From Burkholderiales bacterium (lineage in GTDB: Bacteria > Pseudomonadota > Gammaproteobacteria > Burkholderiales > CAIKXV01): a stretch of 33,039 nucleotides of DNA. The stretch is taken from positions 1-33,039 of the forward strand of contig JACMMK010000128.1 in the NCBI GenBank assembly GCA_014379045.1. Reading direction: 5' to 3'. The notes under the pieces were generated by a model. It was not told where the DNA came from. It did not search any database and was given only the letters and a program-made list of their open reading frames with translations. A program made the position numbers and the translations under genes. This document shows positions 7,589 to 16,666 of the stretch, one piece after another (positions within the stretch are counted from its first letter, which is position 1; every line of letters starts with the position of its first letter).

Positions 7589-9151
7589 ATGAGCTTCGAC
7601 CGTCACGCTTTCATCAGCTACGCGCACATCGACAATGAACCTCTCACCCCGGAACAGAAGGGGTGGGTGACGCGGTTTCATGCGACGCTTGGTACGATGC
7701 TCAGCCAGCGTATCGGGCAGAAGGCAGACATCTGGCGCGACGATAAGTTGGCCGGCAACGACGTCTTTTCCGAGGAGATCGTCGACCAGTTCGCGCGCAC
7801 GGCACTGCTGATCTCGGTATTGACGCCGCGCTACCTGAAGTCCGAATGGTGTACCCGCGAGATCCGCGAGTTCTGCGCGGCGGCGGAGCGAACCGGCGGC
7901 TTGCTCGTCGACAACAAATGCCGGGTGTTCAAGGTGATCAAGACCCCGGTCGACAGCGAAGCGTGCCTGCCCCCGGTGATCGGCCAGGTACTCGGTTATG
8001 AATTCTTCGCACTCGACGAGGACCAGACGCCCCGCGATCTCGATCCGGTATTCGGCGATGCCTCACGCCAGGAGTTCCTGCGCAAGTTGAACAAGCTCGC
8101 GTGGGACATCGCGCAGTTATGGGAGCAGCTCGACGAACGCAGGACCGCGACCGCGGACGAGGTCGTGACGAACGGTCGCACCGAGGCAGCCACCACGCAG
8201 GCGCCGCGGGGTGTGCGCAAGCCGGCCGTCTTCCTGGCGCAGGTCAGCCGCGATCAGCGCGCCGCGCGCGAGATGATCGAAGCCGGTCTGAAGCGCCACG
8301 GTTATGTCGTGCTGCCCGACCGCCAGTTGCCGCTCGACGAGGAAATGTTCGTCTGCGCAGTGGAGTCGTGTCTGGCGCAGTGTGCATTCTCGATCCACCT
8401 GATCGGCAACGGTTACGGGGTGGTGCCCGACGGCCCCAGCCAGCGCTCGCTCGTCGTGCTGCAGAACGAACTCGCGGCCGCCCACAGCCGCGATCGAGGG
8501 TTGAAACGGCTGATCTGGATCCCGCCGGGCACCGCCGGGGAGCAACCGGCACAGCGGGCATTCATCGCCACGTTGCTCTCCGACGCCAGCGCGCAACTGG
8601 GTGCAGACCTGCTCACCGGAGATATCGAAAGCGTAAAAGGCGCGGTTCATGCTGCGCTTACCCGAATTGAACTCGCGCAGACGACCGAGCGCGCACGTGC
8701 ACCGGCAAACGGCGCCACCGAGTCGCACAAGGCCGTCTACCTGCTGTGCGATGAGCGCGATCGACGCGACATCGTGCCGCTGATTCGTCATTTGCGCAGT
8801 GCCGGCCTGGAGGTGACCACGCCGGTGTTCACCGGCGACGCCGCCACCGTGCGCGAGGCGAATCAGCAACGGCTCGCGACCTGCGATGCGGTGATCCTTT
8901 TTTATGGAGCGGGTGACGAGGCCTGGAAGTATCACCAGGAGAACGAGCTTCGGAAGATGGCCGGCTTGCATGTGTCGCACTCGGCACCGCCGGTCCATCT
9001 TTACGTCTCGGCTCCGGCGAGTCCGGACAAGGAACTGTTGGTTTCGTTGCAGGAGCCGAATCTGATCGACGGGTCGGGCGGCCTGGCGGTCGAAGCCCTC
9101 GCGCCGTTCATCGCGGCATTGCGATCGGGCGACGCGCTTTCATGCCGGTAA
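7589..9151 (+). CDS. Protein with three tandem TIR-like domains
   Basis: This is a 520-aa soluble protein. Residues 5-185 are a TIR domain of the type starting HAFISYAHIDN; it has IWRDDKL (48-54) and SEWCTREI (85-92), where Glu91 matches the NAD-glycohydrolase glutamate. Residues about 212-360 repeat the pattern with a degenerate TIR-like fold (AVFLAQVS start, FSIHLIGNGYG strand, LQNELA helix). Residues about 382-512 form a third, with AVYLLCDE, CDAVILFYGAGDEAW and QENELRKM. TIR 1 looks catalytic. TIR 2 and 3 resemble the diverged domains placed before STAND proteins and may bind signal or scaffold. Its 3' end overlaps the nSTAND gene by 10 bp, so the two are probably cotranslated and act together. 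No Shine-Dalgarno is obvious before the ATG. Confidence 0.9.
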   Translation: MSFDRHAFISYAHIDNEPLTPEQKGWVTRFHATLGTMLSQRIGQKADIWRDDKLAGNDVFSEEIVDQFARTALLISVLTPRYLKSEWCTREIREFCAAAERTGGLLVDNKCRVFKVIKTPVDSEACLPPVIGQVLGYEFFALDEDQTPRDLDPVFGDASRQEFLRKLNKLAWDIAQLWEQLDERRTATADEVVTNGRTEAATTQAPRGVRKPAVFLAQVSRDQRAAREMIEAGLKRHGYVVLPDRQLPLDEEMFVCAVESCLAQCAFSIHLIGNGYGVVPDGPSQRSLVVLQNELAAAHSRDRGLKRLIWIPPGTAGEQPAQRAFIATLLSDASAQLGADLLTGDIESVKGAVHAALTRIELAQTTERARAPANGATESHKAVYLLCDERDRRDIVPLIRHLRSAGLEVTTPVFTGDAATVREANQQRLATCDAVILFYGAGDEAWKYHQENELRKMAGLHVSHSAPPVHLYVSAPASPDKELLVSLQEPNLIDGSGGLAVEALAPFIAALRSGDALSCR

Positions 9152-11307
9152 CCGGGTCTGAAGGCCTGCGCAGCGCCAGCGACCCGCGACATCAGCCCGG
9201 GTTCAATCCGTTTCCGGGGTTGCGACCGTTCCAGGAACACGAGGAGTATCTGTACTTCGGCCGCGAGCCGCAGGCCGATGCGCTGATCACGAGGCTCGCG
9301 GCAACGCACTTCCTCGCCGTGGTGGGCACGTCGGGGTCGGGCAAATCGTCGCTGGTCAACTGCGGACTGCGCCCTGCCCTCCACCGCGGCCTGATGACCA
9401 GCGCCGGCAGCGCGTGGCGCATGGCGTACCTGCGACCGGGCCTGGCACCGCTGACGTCGCTGGCCGAAGCGCTGGCGGCGCCCAACGTACTCTTTTCATC
9501 GGTCGACACGGGGGAGTTCAGCCAGGCCGAGCTGATCGAAAGCTCGTTGCGGGTGAGCAAACTAGGGCTGATCGATGCGTTCACCCAGGCGCGGCTGCCC
9601 GCGCACACGAACCTGCTGATCGTGGTCGACCAGTTCGAAGAGCTGTTCCGCTATCGCGCGCTGGCTAGCGCCGGCCGGGTCGATGAGGCACGCGTGCGCG
9701 AGGACGCGACCGCGTTCATGAATCTTCTGCTCGAGGTGCCGGAACATCCGAACCTGCCGATCTTCGTCGTGTTGACGATGCGCTCCGACTTTCTCGGCGA
9801 TTGCGCGCAGTTCTTCGGCCTTCCCGAGGCGATCAATCGCGGCCAGTATCTCGTACCCAGGATGACGCGCGAGGAGCGTCGCACCGCGATTTCCGGTCCG
9901 ATCGGTGTCGGCGGCGCGGAGATCGACCCGGTACTGTTGACGCGCCTGGTCAACGACGTCGGTGACAACCCTGATCAGTTGTCCCAACTGCAGCACGCGA
10001 TGAATCGTACGTGGGCCGGGTGGCGCGACGAGTGCGAGCGCGACGCCGGCACCGCCGTGCCAATCAGCCTGCGCCACTACGAGGCAATCGGCACCATCGC
10101 CCAGGCACTGAACCAGCATGCCGAAGAGGCTTTCGACGCGCTTCCGACCATCCGGGCGCAGATGCTGTGCGAAGCGCTGTTCCGGGCGATCACCGACCGT
10201 CGACTCGACGCACGCGGCACCCGTCGACCCACCCGGCTCGACACGCTCTGCGCGATCACCGAGGCCGATGCCGACACGTTGATCGAGGTGATCGACGTCT
10301 TTCGTGATCCGCGCTGTGCATTCCTGATGCCTCCGGCAGGCGAGCCGATCGATGCCGATACCGTGATCGACATCTCGCACGAAAGCCTGATGCGGGTGTG
10401 GACGCGTCTGCGCCAATGGGGCGAGGAGGAAGCGCTGTCGGCGCGCGTGCTACGACGTCTCGCGAAGACCGCGGAACTCAACGCGGCCGGCCAGGCGAAC
10501 CTGCTGCGTAATCCTGAGCTGCAGGTGGCGCTCGATTGGCGCCGCCAGGAAAAACCGAACGAGGCATGGGCCTCGCGCTATCACCCCGTATTGGACGATG
10601 CGCTGAAACTGATCGACGCGAGTCAGGCGATGGTCGAGCATGAAGAAGCGGAGGACGCGCGCAGGCGTGCCGAGGAAGCCCACCTGCGGGCGGAGATCGC
10701 GCATTCGGGTCGCCGCCGCCGCTTCTGGATGGGAGCAACGACGCTGTTCATTCTCGTCGTCACTATCGGCTCGTACTTCGTCTATCTGCAACAGAAGGCG
10801 ATCAGCGCCGAGCGGGCGGCGTTCGAAAGCGAAAAGACCGCCCTCGCCGCGAAGATTGCCTTCGAGGCGGAGCGCTCGCGCGTGAGAATCCTGGACGCCG
10901 AAAGCAGGGACGCCCAGAACCAGCTCGCCGCGGCATACCAAGCGGCGCCAAATCTGGTGAAAGGGGTGTCGGGCGCACCTGCCACCGCGACAGTGGTTTA
11001 TCTGCAAGTTCCTGCCGGACAGAATCGCGCTGAGGCGCAATCGGTGCAGAAACAATTGCAGGGCGCCGGGTACAAAGCGCCCGGCGTCGAGGGGGTGAGC
11101 GTCAGCCCACGAAATTTCGAGCTACGCTATTTCCGCGAAGAAGATGAGAACAGTGCGCGCAAGGTGGCCGAACTGGTGCGTAGATGGACTTCAAGCGACC
11201 TGCGTCTGGTCCGCGTTCCCGGCTTCGAGACGCGCTCGCGATTGCAGCAGTTCGAGCTCTGGTTTCCTGCGCAGGACGCCGCTGCGCCAGCGCGCACGCG
11301 GAACTGA
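9142..11307 (+). CDS. nSTAND1-type NTPase with membrane anchor and C-terminal LytR_C/SPOR-like domain
   Basis: This is a 721-aa protein. It opens with NPFPGLRPF (22-30) and YFGRE, the hallmark entrance of the novel STAND NTPase 1 family. The Walker A motif GTSGSGKSS is at 62-70 and Walker B LLIVVDQFEELF at about 158-169; ISHESLMRVWTRLRQW near 412-427 is the usual end of the helical part. Relatives often continue into WD40 repeats. Here the chain instead has a charged coiled coil (about 498-525), one membrane helix (about 529-550), a second coiled coil (to about 610) and a compact alpha/beta domain (about 625-712) with VVYLQVP and FELRYFREED segments, like LytR_C or SPOR-type domains attached to other conflict proteins. 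STAND proteins sense a trigger and oligomerise. The anchor and likely periplasmic tail suggest envelope sensing. It overlaps the triple-TIR gene by 10 bp. Confidence 0.92.
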   Translation: MPVTGSEGLRSASDPRHQPGFNPFPGLRPFQEHEEYLYFGREPQADALITRLAATHFLAVVGTSGSGKSSLVNCGLRPALHRGLMTSAGSAWRMAYLRPGLAPLTSLAEALAAPNVLFSSVDTGEFSQAELIESSLRVSKLGLIDAFTQARLPAHTNLLIVVDQFEELFRYRALASAGRVDEARVREDATAFMNLLLEVPEHPNLPIFVVLTMRSDFLGDCAQFFGLPEAINRGQYLVPRMTREERRTAISGPIGVGGAEIDPVLLTRLVNDVGDNPDQLSQLQHAMNRTWAGWRDECERDAGTAVPISLRHYEAIGTIAQALNQHAEEAFDALPTIRAQMLCEALFRAITDRRLDARGTRRPTRLDTLCAITEADADTLIEVIDVFRDPRCAFLMPPAGEPIDADTVIDISHESLMRVWTRLRQWGEEEALSARVLRRLAKTAELNAAGQANLLRNPELQVALDWRRQEKPNEAWASRYHPVLDDALKLIDASQAMVEHEEAEDARRRAEEAHLRAEIAHSGRRRRFWMGATTLFILVVTIGSYFVYLQQKAISAERAAFESEKTALAAKIAFEAERSRVRILDAESRDAQNQLAAAYQAAPNLVKGVSGAPATATVVYLQVPAGQNRAEAQSVQKQLQGAGYKAPGVEGVSVSPRNFELRYFREEDENSARKVAELVRRWTSSDLRLVRVPGFETRSRLQQFELWFPAQDAAAPARTRN

Positions 11308-13249: not shown

Positions 13250-14245
13250 TCACGCCGGCGCGTCGGGCGCGGATTCGCGCGCACGCGCGCCATGGGCGGT
13301 AAATCGCGTCAGCAGGATGCCCGCGAAGATCAGCGCGATGCCGAACAGATGGAACGTCTCGACTGCTTCATCCAGCCACAGCCAGCCCATCAACGGCGTG
13401 TAGACCGGCATCAGGTACATGAACGGTCCGGCGCGGCTCGCGCCGAGAATCTGAACGCCCTTGTTCCAGCAGAAATAGGCGAGCACCGTCGCGCCGACAC
13501 TGATATACACGACCGCCGCCAGCAGCTGCGATGACCACACGAAGCGCGCACCCGACGCGAATTCTGCCGCAGCCAGCGGCAACGCGCACAGCGCGCCGAG
13601 CGTCGATATCGCACAGAGCAGGGTCGCCGCCGGCAATCCCGGCGGTCGCCAGCGCAGGCAGATCGTGTAGAACGCCAAGCTCACGGTGCCCAGCAGGATC
13701 CACATGTCGCCGACGTTCAGGGTCCAACCCGCGACAGCCTCAGGATGGCCGCGGGTGACGATCCACAATGCTCCGCTCAGCGCGATGACCACCCCGGCGA
13801 GCACCGCCTTAGTGAGTTTCTCGCCTATCACCAGCCACGCGATCAGGAGAATGAACACCGGCGTGGTGGCGTTGAGCAGCGATGCAGTCGTCGCGGTCGT
13901 CGTGCGCAGCCCGATGTATACCGGCAAGTGCTGCAGGACGCTCGCCAACAGCGCCAGGACGAGCAGGACACCCCATGACCGGCGCAGCAACGCCCAGTGC
14001 TGCACGATCGACCGTCGGCTGTAGACCAGCAGTATCACCGCCGAGATCGCCCAGCGCAGGAAGGTGATGCCCGCGGGCGGCGCATCGAAACGGATCATCC
14101 GCCCGATCACCCAGTTGCCGGCCCACGAGGCGACGGCCAGTGCGAGCAGGCCGGAGGCGATCCAGGCGCGCCCGTCTACCCGCGTGCTCGTCACCCCTGC
14201 GCAGCGCGGGGTACCCGCAGAGCCACGCAGCGCGCGCCGCAGCAC
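13250..14245 (-). CDS. EamA/DMT-family membrane transporter
   Basis: The product is 331 aa, with ten hydrophobic helices arranged as two EamA repeats of five, typical of drug/metabolite exporters such as RhaT/YdcZ relatives. Recognisable features are the NWVIGR segment after helix 1, the LRWAISA segment near helix 2, and the LNATTPVFILLIAWL and GASRAGPFMYLMPVYTPL segments that end each half. The start is uncertain: GTG at 14245 gives a 26-residue Arg-rich leader, while GTG at 14194 gives a more normal N terminus. The substrate cannot be assigned. It is convergent with the TetR gene and 21 bp downstream of the M24 hydrolase on the same strand, so it may be cotranscribed with it. Confidence 0.9.
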   Translation of the reverse strand: MLRRALRGSAGTPRCAGVTSTRVDGRAWIASGLLALAVASWAGNWVIGRMIRFDAPPAGITFLRWAISAVILLVYSRRSIVQHWALLRRSWGVLLVLALLASVLQHLPVYIGLRTTTATTASLLNATTPVFILLIAWLVIGEKLTKAVLAGVVIALSGALWIVTRGHPEAVAGWTLNVGDMWILLGTVSLAFYTICLRWRPPGLPAATLLCAISTLGALCALPLAAAEFASGARFVWSSQLLAAVVYISVGATVLAYFCWNKGVQILGASRAGPFMYLMPVYTPLMGWLWLDEAVETFHLFGIALIFAGILLTRFTAHGARARESAPDAPA

Positions 14246-14266: not shown

Positions 14267-15469
14267 TCAGCCGACACGAAAGAACCCGCGCGGTGAACGA
14301 TGCAGACTTTCGCAACCGGTCGCGGTGATGCGCACCAGCTCGCCGACCTGCACACCGGCCGGTCGCGCGCGGTCGATCACGTTCGGCTGCACCACCATCG
14401 TCATGTTCTCGGCAAGCACGAAGTCGGGAAGCGGCCCGGCGGGACGGCTGCGCGTGCCCAGGATCGGCGGAAAGTATCCGCCGCCGAACCCGTGGACCAG
14501 GTCATCGCAGATGGTGAAGCCCCGCTCCTCGATCACCGAGGTAGCGTCGACGATCTCCGCCATTGTGCATCTGGGGCGCATCACGCGCGTCACCGCATCG
14601 TAGGCCGCCTCCGCCGTGTCGAACAGATCGCGGTACAGCGCAGTCGGCTCGGCGCCGACCGCGAACGTGCGCAGCACCTGCCCGCCATAATCCCAGAACG
14701 CGCCGGTGATCTCGGTGAATACGCAGTCGCCGGCGCGCACGATGCGGTTCATTGGATGCTGCCGTGGCACGAAGCAGTCGGGGTCCGCCATCGCGGTGAC
14801 ACCGAAGTAATGGAGGAAGGTCGTGCCGCCGAACGGCACATAGGCGCGCTCGACGATGTCGCCGAGCTCGCGTTCGTTCAGCCCGGGTGCGAGCTGTTCG
14901 CGCAAGGCACCGATCGACGCATCGCAGAACGCCGCGCCGATGCGCAGCCAATCGAGCTCCTCCGCCGACTTGGTGAGGCGCAGCCGCCCGTACTCGGCGT
15001 TCAGGTCGACGATGTCGGGAAAGCTCGACGCGAGCTTGCGATACTTGCCGAAATTGAACACCCCGATGATGCCGATGCGACGCGCTGCGCGTCGCTTGAG
15101 TTCCGCGATCACCTTGTCGACGCTGCGGTGCTCGCTCCACTCGACATCGCAGTCCCACGCGATCTGCTTGGCGAGGGGCGCATGGTTCACCCACTCGACG
15201 AACATCTTCGGCCGCTCACGGGGGTCGACCACCACGATCTGCTCGGTGGTCGTGACCCACCCGGTGACCCAGGACACGCCGGTACCGGCGCGCTGTTCGC
15301 CGCAGACCAGCAGTTGGTCCACCTCGTGCTTGTGCATCAGCGCGCCGAGCGCGACGCGGCGGCGCGCGATTTCGGCGTCCGAGAAGCGCGGGAACGGTTG
15401 CTCGAGAATCGCACGCAGTCGCGATTCGAGATTCAGGCAGGCAGAATCGGCTGGAATGCGCGATGTCAT
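14267..15469 (-). CDS. M24-family (pita-bread fold) hydrolase with altered metal site
   Basis: This 400-aa protein has a creatinase/prolidase N-terminal domain (about 30-165) and a C-terminal pita-bread domain (about 175-400). In metal-dependent M24 peptidases the ligands are Asp, Asp, His, Glu, Glu. By eye the matching positions here are Glu253, Gln264, His326, Gln361 and Glu377, so only two are retained. It may resemble creatinase, which keeps the fold without metal, or may hydrolyse a C-N bond in a small molecule rather than a peptide. The frame opens at 15694, but GGAGAC stands just before ATG 15469 and the upstream residues are low-complexity. It is divergent from a Bug receptor gene, which suggests that the receptor delivers its substrate or an inducer. 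Confidence 0.87.
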   Translation of the reverse strand: MTSRIPADSACLNLESRLRAILEQPFPRFSDAEIARRRVALGALMHKHEVDQLLVCGEQRAGTGVSWVTGWVTTTEQIVVVDPRERPKMFVEWVNHAPLAKQIAWDCDVEWSEHRSVDKVIAELKRRAARRIGIIGVFNFGKYRKLASSFPDIVDLNAEYGRLRLTKSAEELDWLRIGAAFCDASIGALREQLAPGLNERELGDIVERAYVPFGGTTFLHYFGVTAMADPDCFVPRQHPMNRIVRAGDCVFTEITGAFWDYGGQVLRTFAVGAEPTALYRDLFDTAEAAYDAVTRVMRPRCTMAEIVDATSVIEERGFTICDDLVHGFGGGYFPPILGTRSRPAGPLPDFVLAENMTMVVQPNVIDRARPAGVQVGELVRITATGCESLHRSPRGFFRVG

Positions 15470-15593: not shown

Positions 15594-15646
15594 CGGCTGC
15601 CTGGAACCGATGCCTCTGGAACAGACCCGATAGAATAGGAATGATC

Positions 15647-16666
15647 ATGCGATGTTACCGACCTTCGAAGCGTTCCGGCGTCCTGCGGCGTCATGCGCTG
15701 TCACTCGCAGGTCTCGCTGCAATGCTCGGGTCGGTCCTGCCCCGCGCCGGTCCGGTGTTTGCCCAAGCCTGGCCGTTGAAGCCCGTTCGCATCGTCCACG
15801 GCTTCGCGCCGGGCAGCGCGATCGACGTGTCGATCCGGCCTCTCGCCGCGCAACTTTCCGAACAGTTCGCGCAGACCTTCTCGGTGGAGCCGCGCCCGGG
15901 TGCGACGGGTCAGCTCGCCAACGAACTCGTATCGAAGTCGACCCCGGATGGTTATGTGCTGCTAGCTGCACCCGGCACCTCGCTCACTTCGGCGCCACAG
16001 TTGCAGAAGGCGCCTTACGATCCTCTGAAGGACTTCGCGCCGGTCGCGATGATTACCGCGTTCTCGTACCTGCTCGTCGCGCATCCCGCCGTTCCCGCGA
16101 AGAGCGCGCGCGAACTCGTCGCGCTCGCGCGTGCGAAGCCCGGCTACCTCACGTTCGGCTCCACTGGCATCGGCAGCGGCTTCCATCTGGCCGGTGAACT
16201 GTTCGCCTCGCTCGCCGGCGTCAAGCTCGTCCATGTCCCGTACCGGGGTGGAGGCAGCGCCGCGATGCCCGATCTGGTCAGTGGACGGGTCGACCTGATG
16301 TGGGACAGCTACGGCACCGTGCGCACGCAGGTATTGGCCGGCAAGCTGCGCGCGATCGGCGTGACCGGCGCGACCCGCATCGCGGCACTCGCCGACGTGC
16401 CGACGATCGCCGAGAGCGGGCTCCCGGGCTACGACCTGGTCGGCTGGCACGGAGTGCTCGCACCTGGCGGTGCCTCCCGAGAGGTCGTCGAGCGCCTGAA
16501 CACCACGATCAACCGAACACTCGATCGCGCCGATCTGCGCGCGCTCTGGACCCAGCAGGGTTTCGAGACGCCGCAGCTGACGCCCGAGCAGTTCGACCAG
16601 CGTATCCGCCGCGACTTCGAGTTGTACGGAAAGCTTATCAAGACGATCGGCCTGCGCGCCCAATGA
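15647..16666 (+). CDS. Bug/TctC-family extracytoplasmic solute-binding receptor
   Basis: This 339-aa product is a tripartite-tricarboxylate-transporter-type receptor. A signal peptide with a twin-arginine-like RR start, a hydrophobic core and a VFAQA end precedes WPLKPVRIVHGFAPGS, the standard first strand of Bug proteins. APYDPLKDFAPVAMI and VPYRGGGSAAMPDLVSG are further family landmarks around the ligand cleft. Start 15647 fits the AGGA six bases before it better than the in-frame ATG at 15641. Bug proteins bind small acids or amides in the periplasm; most lack a nearby TctAB membrane pair, as here. It is divergent from the M24 hydrolase, whose substrate it may capture, and is followed 31 bp later by uup. 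Confidence 0.92.
   Translation: MRCYRPSKRSGVLRRHALSLAGLAAMLGSVLPRAGPVFAQAWPLKPVRIVHGFAPGSAIDVSIRPLAAQLSEQFAQTFSVEPRPGATGQLANELVSKSTPDGYVLLAAPGTSLTSAPQLQKAPYDPLKDFAPVAMITAFSYLLVAHPAVPAKSARELVALARAKPGYLTFGSTGIGSGFHLAGELFASLAGVKLVHVPYRGGGSAAMPDLVSGRVDLMWDSYGTVRTQVLAGKLRAIGVTGATRIAALADVPTIAESGLPGYDLVGWHGVLAPGGASREVVERLNTTINRTLDRADLRALWTQQGFETPQLTPEQFDQRIRRDFELYGKLIKTIGLRAQ

Follow-up and report, generated by a model that had tools for sequence, protein, structure and literature searches.

The window analysed here, a 33,039-nucleotide stretch of contig JACMMK010000128.1 from a Burkholderiales bacterium (assembly GCA_014379045.1), carries on its minus strand, at positions 14267 to 15469, a gene for a 400-residue protein of the M24 fold that belongs to a group named here E-Q-H-Q-G after the residues at its five metal positions. 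The translation ends at a stop codon at 14267-14269. An alternative in-frame ATG at 15694 would give a protein of 475 residues, overlapping the divergent gene for a TctC-type periplasmic binding protein on the plus strand (15641 to 16666, with its start at 15641). Because the longer reading frame enters this TctC gene and the starts of the orthologues fall near 15469, the shorter form is preferred. On the same strand, and only 22 bp downstream of the M24 gene, lies a gene for an EamA (DMT) transporter (13250 to 14245), which is possibly co-transcribed with it. This EamA gene adjoins the M24 gene in five genomes of the genus, that of the window included, and is missing from others. As for the TctC neighbour, the 3.8 Mb genome from which the window derives holds at least 150 TctC-type genes, so its presence says little, and we set it aside as a weak functional clue. 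Elsewhere in the window (7589 to 11307), a TIR-domain gene and an nSTAND1 NTPase gene overlap on the same strand (9142/9151) and are possibly a defence pair.

The frame of 400 residues is intact, and both M24 domains score above their curated Pfam cut-offs (Peptidase_M24, E=2.5e-18, 67.1 bits against a cut-off of 23; Creatinase_N, E=1.2e-5, 26.3 bits against 22). No curated NCBIfam model, in turn, reaches its cut-off with this protein; the matches are weak, the top ones being the DoeA models (1e-10), with 40.9 bits against a cut-off of 575 and 39.6 against 613, and the DddP model is absent among them. The structure prediction that the sequence-only reading had called for, an AlphaFold2 model of the full-length protein built on an eight-sequence alignment (pLDDT 83.5, pTM 0.85), matches M24B structures and, together with the two Pfam domains, places the protein in the M24 fold. 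In Foldseek searches, prolidase, EutD and creatinase match the model about equally (query TM 0.68-0.76), and the ranking separates none of the three from the others. The loops at residues 235-238, 330-332 and 338-342, which by homology lie near the site, have a pLDDT below 50.

In the case of the metal site, E. coli PepQ, PepP, YpdF and the methionine aminopeptidase Map all read D-D-H-E-E in our alignment, whereas the window protein reads E253, Q264, H326, Q361 and G376, so that the earlier claim that most of the metal ligands had been lost is borne out. Four of the five residues then listed were also correctly placed, namely Glu253 at the first position (codon at 14711 to 14713; Asp in the peptidases, Glu in DoeA), Gln264 at the second (14678 to 14680; Asp in the peptidases), His326 at the third, where the His is kept (14492 to 14494), and Gln361 at the fourth (14387 to 14389; Glu in the peptidases, with Glu or Lys instead of Gln in a few relatives). 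The fifth, given as Glu377 (14339-14341), was off by one residue: the canonical Glu pairs gap-free with Gly376 (14342 to 14344), and Glu377 pairs with the residue that follows, usually an Asp. All these codons are on the minus strand, with coordinates computed as 15469-3*(n-1). With Gly376 as the true fifth residue, the pocket resembles a dinuclear metal site still less than had been proposed, and no other acidic residues, the observation named beforehand as fatal to the proposal, were found at the metal positions in the sequence alignment. The ligands of the Pyrococcus horikoshii prolidase are Asp212, Asp223, His287, Glu316 and Glu330 (PMC2814137), and in a profile alignment D212, D223, E316 and E330 of 1wy2, with the numbering matched to that publication, stand opposite E253, Q264, Q361 and G376. 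An HMM alignment that paired His326 with another prolidase His was set aside, because relatives with the HGxGxG motif and a MAFFT L-INS-i alignment put His326 in the metal-His column.

What is retained from the peptidase site, then, is His326 and one carboxylate (Glu253, replacing Asp), the other three of four carboxylates having become Gln or Gly. The catalytic His that precedes the first ligand (references being His79 of methionine aminopeptidase and His195/198 of prolidase; the role of His198 is described in PMC2814137) is found in the four E. coli peptidases, creatinase and DoeA, while its column is occupied here by Arg236; likewise, in the HGxGxxxHE motif the second His has given way to Phe333. 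Both columns are variable across the clade. PepP, PepQ and YpdF (1pv9, 2zsg, 1wy2) share the two-domain fold of the window protein and provide its best sequence matches and some of its best Foldseek matches, but other residues stand at four of the five ligand positions and in place of both catalytic His, so that neither the ligand set nor the His pair of an M24 metallopeptidase is present. As the sequence-only reading had warned, annotation as an Xaa-Pro aminopeptidase would be misleading, given the replaced site, the separate clade and the lack of any NCBIfam model reaching its cut-off.

The altered site is strongly conserved. All of the 45 relatives collected read E-Q-H-(Q/E/K)-G, at identities down to 18%, and not one of the 45 departs from E253, Q264, H326 and G376, although invariant columns number only 11 of 400 overall. 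Among the 40 members with Gln or Glu at the fourth position, conservation reaches 97% or more at Q361, Q374, D322 and W259. Exceptions to Gln at the fourth position are one relative with Glu and five with Lys, the latter being five proteins of one alphaproteobacterial MAG. In this MAG (G486, loci L063-L066) the E-Q-H-K-G branch is multicopy, with two tandem genes in L066. Compared with its orthologues in the genus, the window gene shows a dN of 0.11-0.20 and a dS of 0.70-1.01 (dN/dS about 0.15-0.2), and dN being well under dS, the protein is under purifying selection. In our tree the 45 members form a single clade (support 100/99), separate from creatinase, from DoeA and its relatives, from the canonical peptidases and from a group reading D-C-H-E-E. 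The E-Q-H-(Q/E/K)-G signature arose once in this tree, and one state change was still sufficient (support 87) when the site columns and their neighbouring columns were left out. The deep branching order is unsure owing to long branches.

Orthologues of the gene are present in nine other genomes of the genus (74-83% identity), a tenth having a paralogue only, and in two genomes of another family of the order (G055 and G098; 55-59%); relatives at 46% occur in two MAGs labelled Rhizobium and Rhodospirillaceae. A second paralogue group, 33-37% identical, has Asn in place of Glu377 and the five metal positions unchanged, and the window's own genome encodes a further E-Q-H-Q-G gene (contig C144, L002). 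In haloarchaea, relatives at about 32% identity, reading E-Q-H-Q-G and E-Q-H-E-G, are encoded on plasmids of Haloarcula and Haladaptatus. Of 399 genomes sampled evenly across the phylum, at least one passes E=1e-50, the window's genome being the only one among the candidates scored; this count is a lower bound, as few candidates were scored per genome. Within the class to which the Rhizobium-labelled MAG belongs, 8 of 385 genomes pass 1e-60. The clade is thus an uncommon one, found in Burkholderiales MAGs, some Alphaproteobacteria and haloarchaeal plasmids. We found no published description of it, in a literature search that covers few subscription journals, and no activity, substrate, metal content or structure for any of its members.

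Departures from the canonical site are also seen elsewhere in the fold. The window's own genome (G000) has seven M24 genes (L103-L109), of which only the methionine aminopeptidase reads D-D-H-E-E, the other six sites being E-Q-H-Q-G (twice), D-C-H-E-E, E-G-H-E-K, E-N-H-E-E and D-N-H-E-E. The D-C-H-E-E proteins, in which Cys replaces the second Asp, constitute a second M24 family (L045:16109-17470, L049:4590-5951, L004) whose genes adjoin those of 2-oxoacid dehydrogenase E1; the nearest curated model is that of DddP (E=5e-33), far under the cut-off. Creatinase (creatine amidinohydrolase; 1chm, 1kp0, 7yto) has the fold of the window protein, has partly lost its ligands and keeps the third-position His, and to this extent the sequence-only reading was justified in calling the window protein creatinase-like, that is, a metal-poor member of the same fold. 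The likeness goes no further, as creatinase reads N-A-H-E-H, aligns a His with Arg236 and a Glu with Gln361 of the window protein, and lies on a separate branch of the tree.

Gene neighbourhoods vary from clade to clade. In the window's genus, the M24 gene is flanked only by the EamA gene and the very common TctC gene. In G055 and G098 the neighbours encode an aldo-keto reductase, a TctC protein, a 3-hydroxyisobutyrate-dehydrogenase-like protein, 2-oxoacid dehydrogenase E1 and E2 and a second M24 protein, and in the paralogue group they encode an aldo-keto reductase, RidA, an amidohydrolase, a GntR regulator and an alpha/beta hydrolase. The last of these matches the C-C-bond hydrolase of 2,6-dihydroxypseudooxynicotine (2jbw, E=7e-49), and related FrsA-like alpha/beta hydrolases occur in three further lineages, near the paralogue of the window's own genome, beside L080/L081 and beside the Haloarcula gene. 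Another lineage has a molybdenum hydroxylase with an alpha/beta hydrolase, to which one genome adds a gentisate-type dioxygenase, while the haloarchaeal relatives lie near an ABC transporter, an amidohydrolase and an aldehyde dehydrogenase. Taken together, the neighbours of these relatives suggest a role in small-molecule catabolism.

A pocket rebuilt from conserved polar residues and these catabolic neighbours point to a metal-independent small-molecule hydrolase, and we put at roughly 50% the probability that the family is an M24 fold without the dinuclear metal site, acting as a predicted metal-independent hydrolase on a small organic molecule within a catabolic pathway. In such an enzyme Glu253, by analogy with Glu255 of DoeA, may either activate a water molecule or itself attack the substrate, which would be an amide, a lactam, an amidine or an activated carbonyl. 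His326, perhaps with Asp322, could serve as proton shuttle, and Gln264, Gln361 and Gln374 would, as hydrogen-bond donors at the former metal places, hold the substrate carbonyl or oxyanion. Judging from its homologues, the active site would lie at the dimer interface, as in other M24B proteins. In the EutD work of Mais et al. 2020, Glu255 of DoeA is reportedly the residue bonded to the substrate.

Alternatively, the protein might be a non-catalytic pseudoenzyme with a ligand-binding or regulatory role, in which the M24 fold serves as a binding module, like the Ebp1/PA2G4-type proteins. The loss of the metal ligands and of both peptidase catalytic His residues would be expected in such a protein, and a non-peptidase M24 pseudoenzyme is described (PMC3888471). 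The replacements, however, are polar and, in the case of Glu, Gln and His, invariant over deep divergence, and several relatives reside in catabolic clusters, which fits an enzyme better; we therefore consider this explanation unlikely, if still worth bearing in mind. A further possibility is that the protein is an enzyme that depends on metal, bound in an altered and probably mononuclear site formed for example by His326 and Glu253 with Gln264 and Gln361 as weak ligands, and that it is possibly a lyase like the DMSP lyase DddP. Here, the retention of His326 and one carboxylate, as well as the fact that the position of Gln361 is not fixed (Glu in one relative, Lys in five), could be accommodated, and DddP is itself an M24 fold turned to non-peptidase chemistry that nonetheless kept its metal (PMC4108388). 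DddP, however, conserves the M24 ligands, and iron has been found in it (PMC4108388), whereas in the window protein three of the four carboxylates have become Gln or Gly, Gly occupies the fifth position throughout the clade, and the conserved ligands and equivalog match of a DddP protein are both absent. Such a metal enzyme seems to us a distinctly doubtful candidate.

Among characterised proteins, DoeA/EutD (6twj, 6twk, 6yo9) is a closer comparison for the window protein than creatinase, since it combines the M24 fold with lost metal ligands and a Glu at the first position (Glu255 in DoeA, Glu253 here). One could hence argue, also from the top NCBIfam matches, that the gene encodes an ordinary ectoine or hydroxyectoine hydrolase that has diverged. 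Glu at the first position, however, is found in other M24 variants as well and is not diagnostic; the scores of about 40 bits are far from the cut-offs of 575-613, identity is about 20%, and the sites differ, DoeA reading E-P-Y-M-T against E-Q-H-Q-G and keeping the His in the catalytic-His column, where the window family lacks it. Moreover, a genuine doeA gene is adjoined by doeB/eutE, eutABC and an ectoine transporter, none of which was seen among the annotated neighbours. A tree grouping DoeA with the clade gave an AU p=0.35, so that a common clade is neither shown nor rejected, but on score, site and neighbours we rejected the identification as ectoine hydrolase, which appears very improbable. 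Separately, a Rhizobium gallicum plasmid (L099:3980-5149) has, next to eutB and eutC, a gene for a DoeA-like protein with the site E-A-Y-M-S; this protein scores under the DoeA cut-off, and it is possible that it is a variant acting on a related substrate. Lastly, although the source assembly is fragmented (534 contigs, 85% complete), a decaying gene or a sequencing artefact is refuted by the intact frame, the dN/dS of about 0.15-0.2 and the single signature shared by 45 proteins from many genomes, and can hardly be entertained.

Returning to the metal-independent hydrolase, the M24 fold itself is well known, and what is new here is a defined, uncharacterised clade of metal-less members. At a little short of even odds, we suggest that the E-Q-H-(Q/E/K)-G proteins represent a third independently built metal-free M24 site, besides those of creatinase and DoeA, with a chemistry of its own, for instance a Glu nucleophile that hydrolyses an amide, a lactam or a C-C bond in the catabolism of heteroaromatic compounds or keto acids, and common to bacteria and haloarchaea. 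Public records call the genes of this clade Xaa-Pro peptidase or M24 metallopeptidase, names that are very likely wrong, and the signature can be used to re-annotate these genes. The recurring neighbours reduce the range of substrates to be considered, and the family as a whole is a concrete case in which to test how a dinuclear metal centre gives way to a metal-free site.
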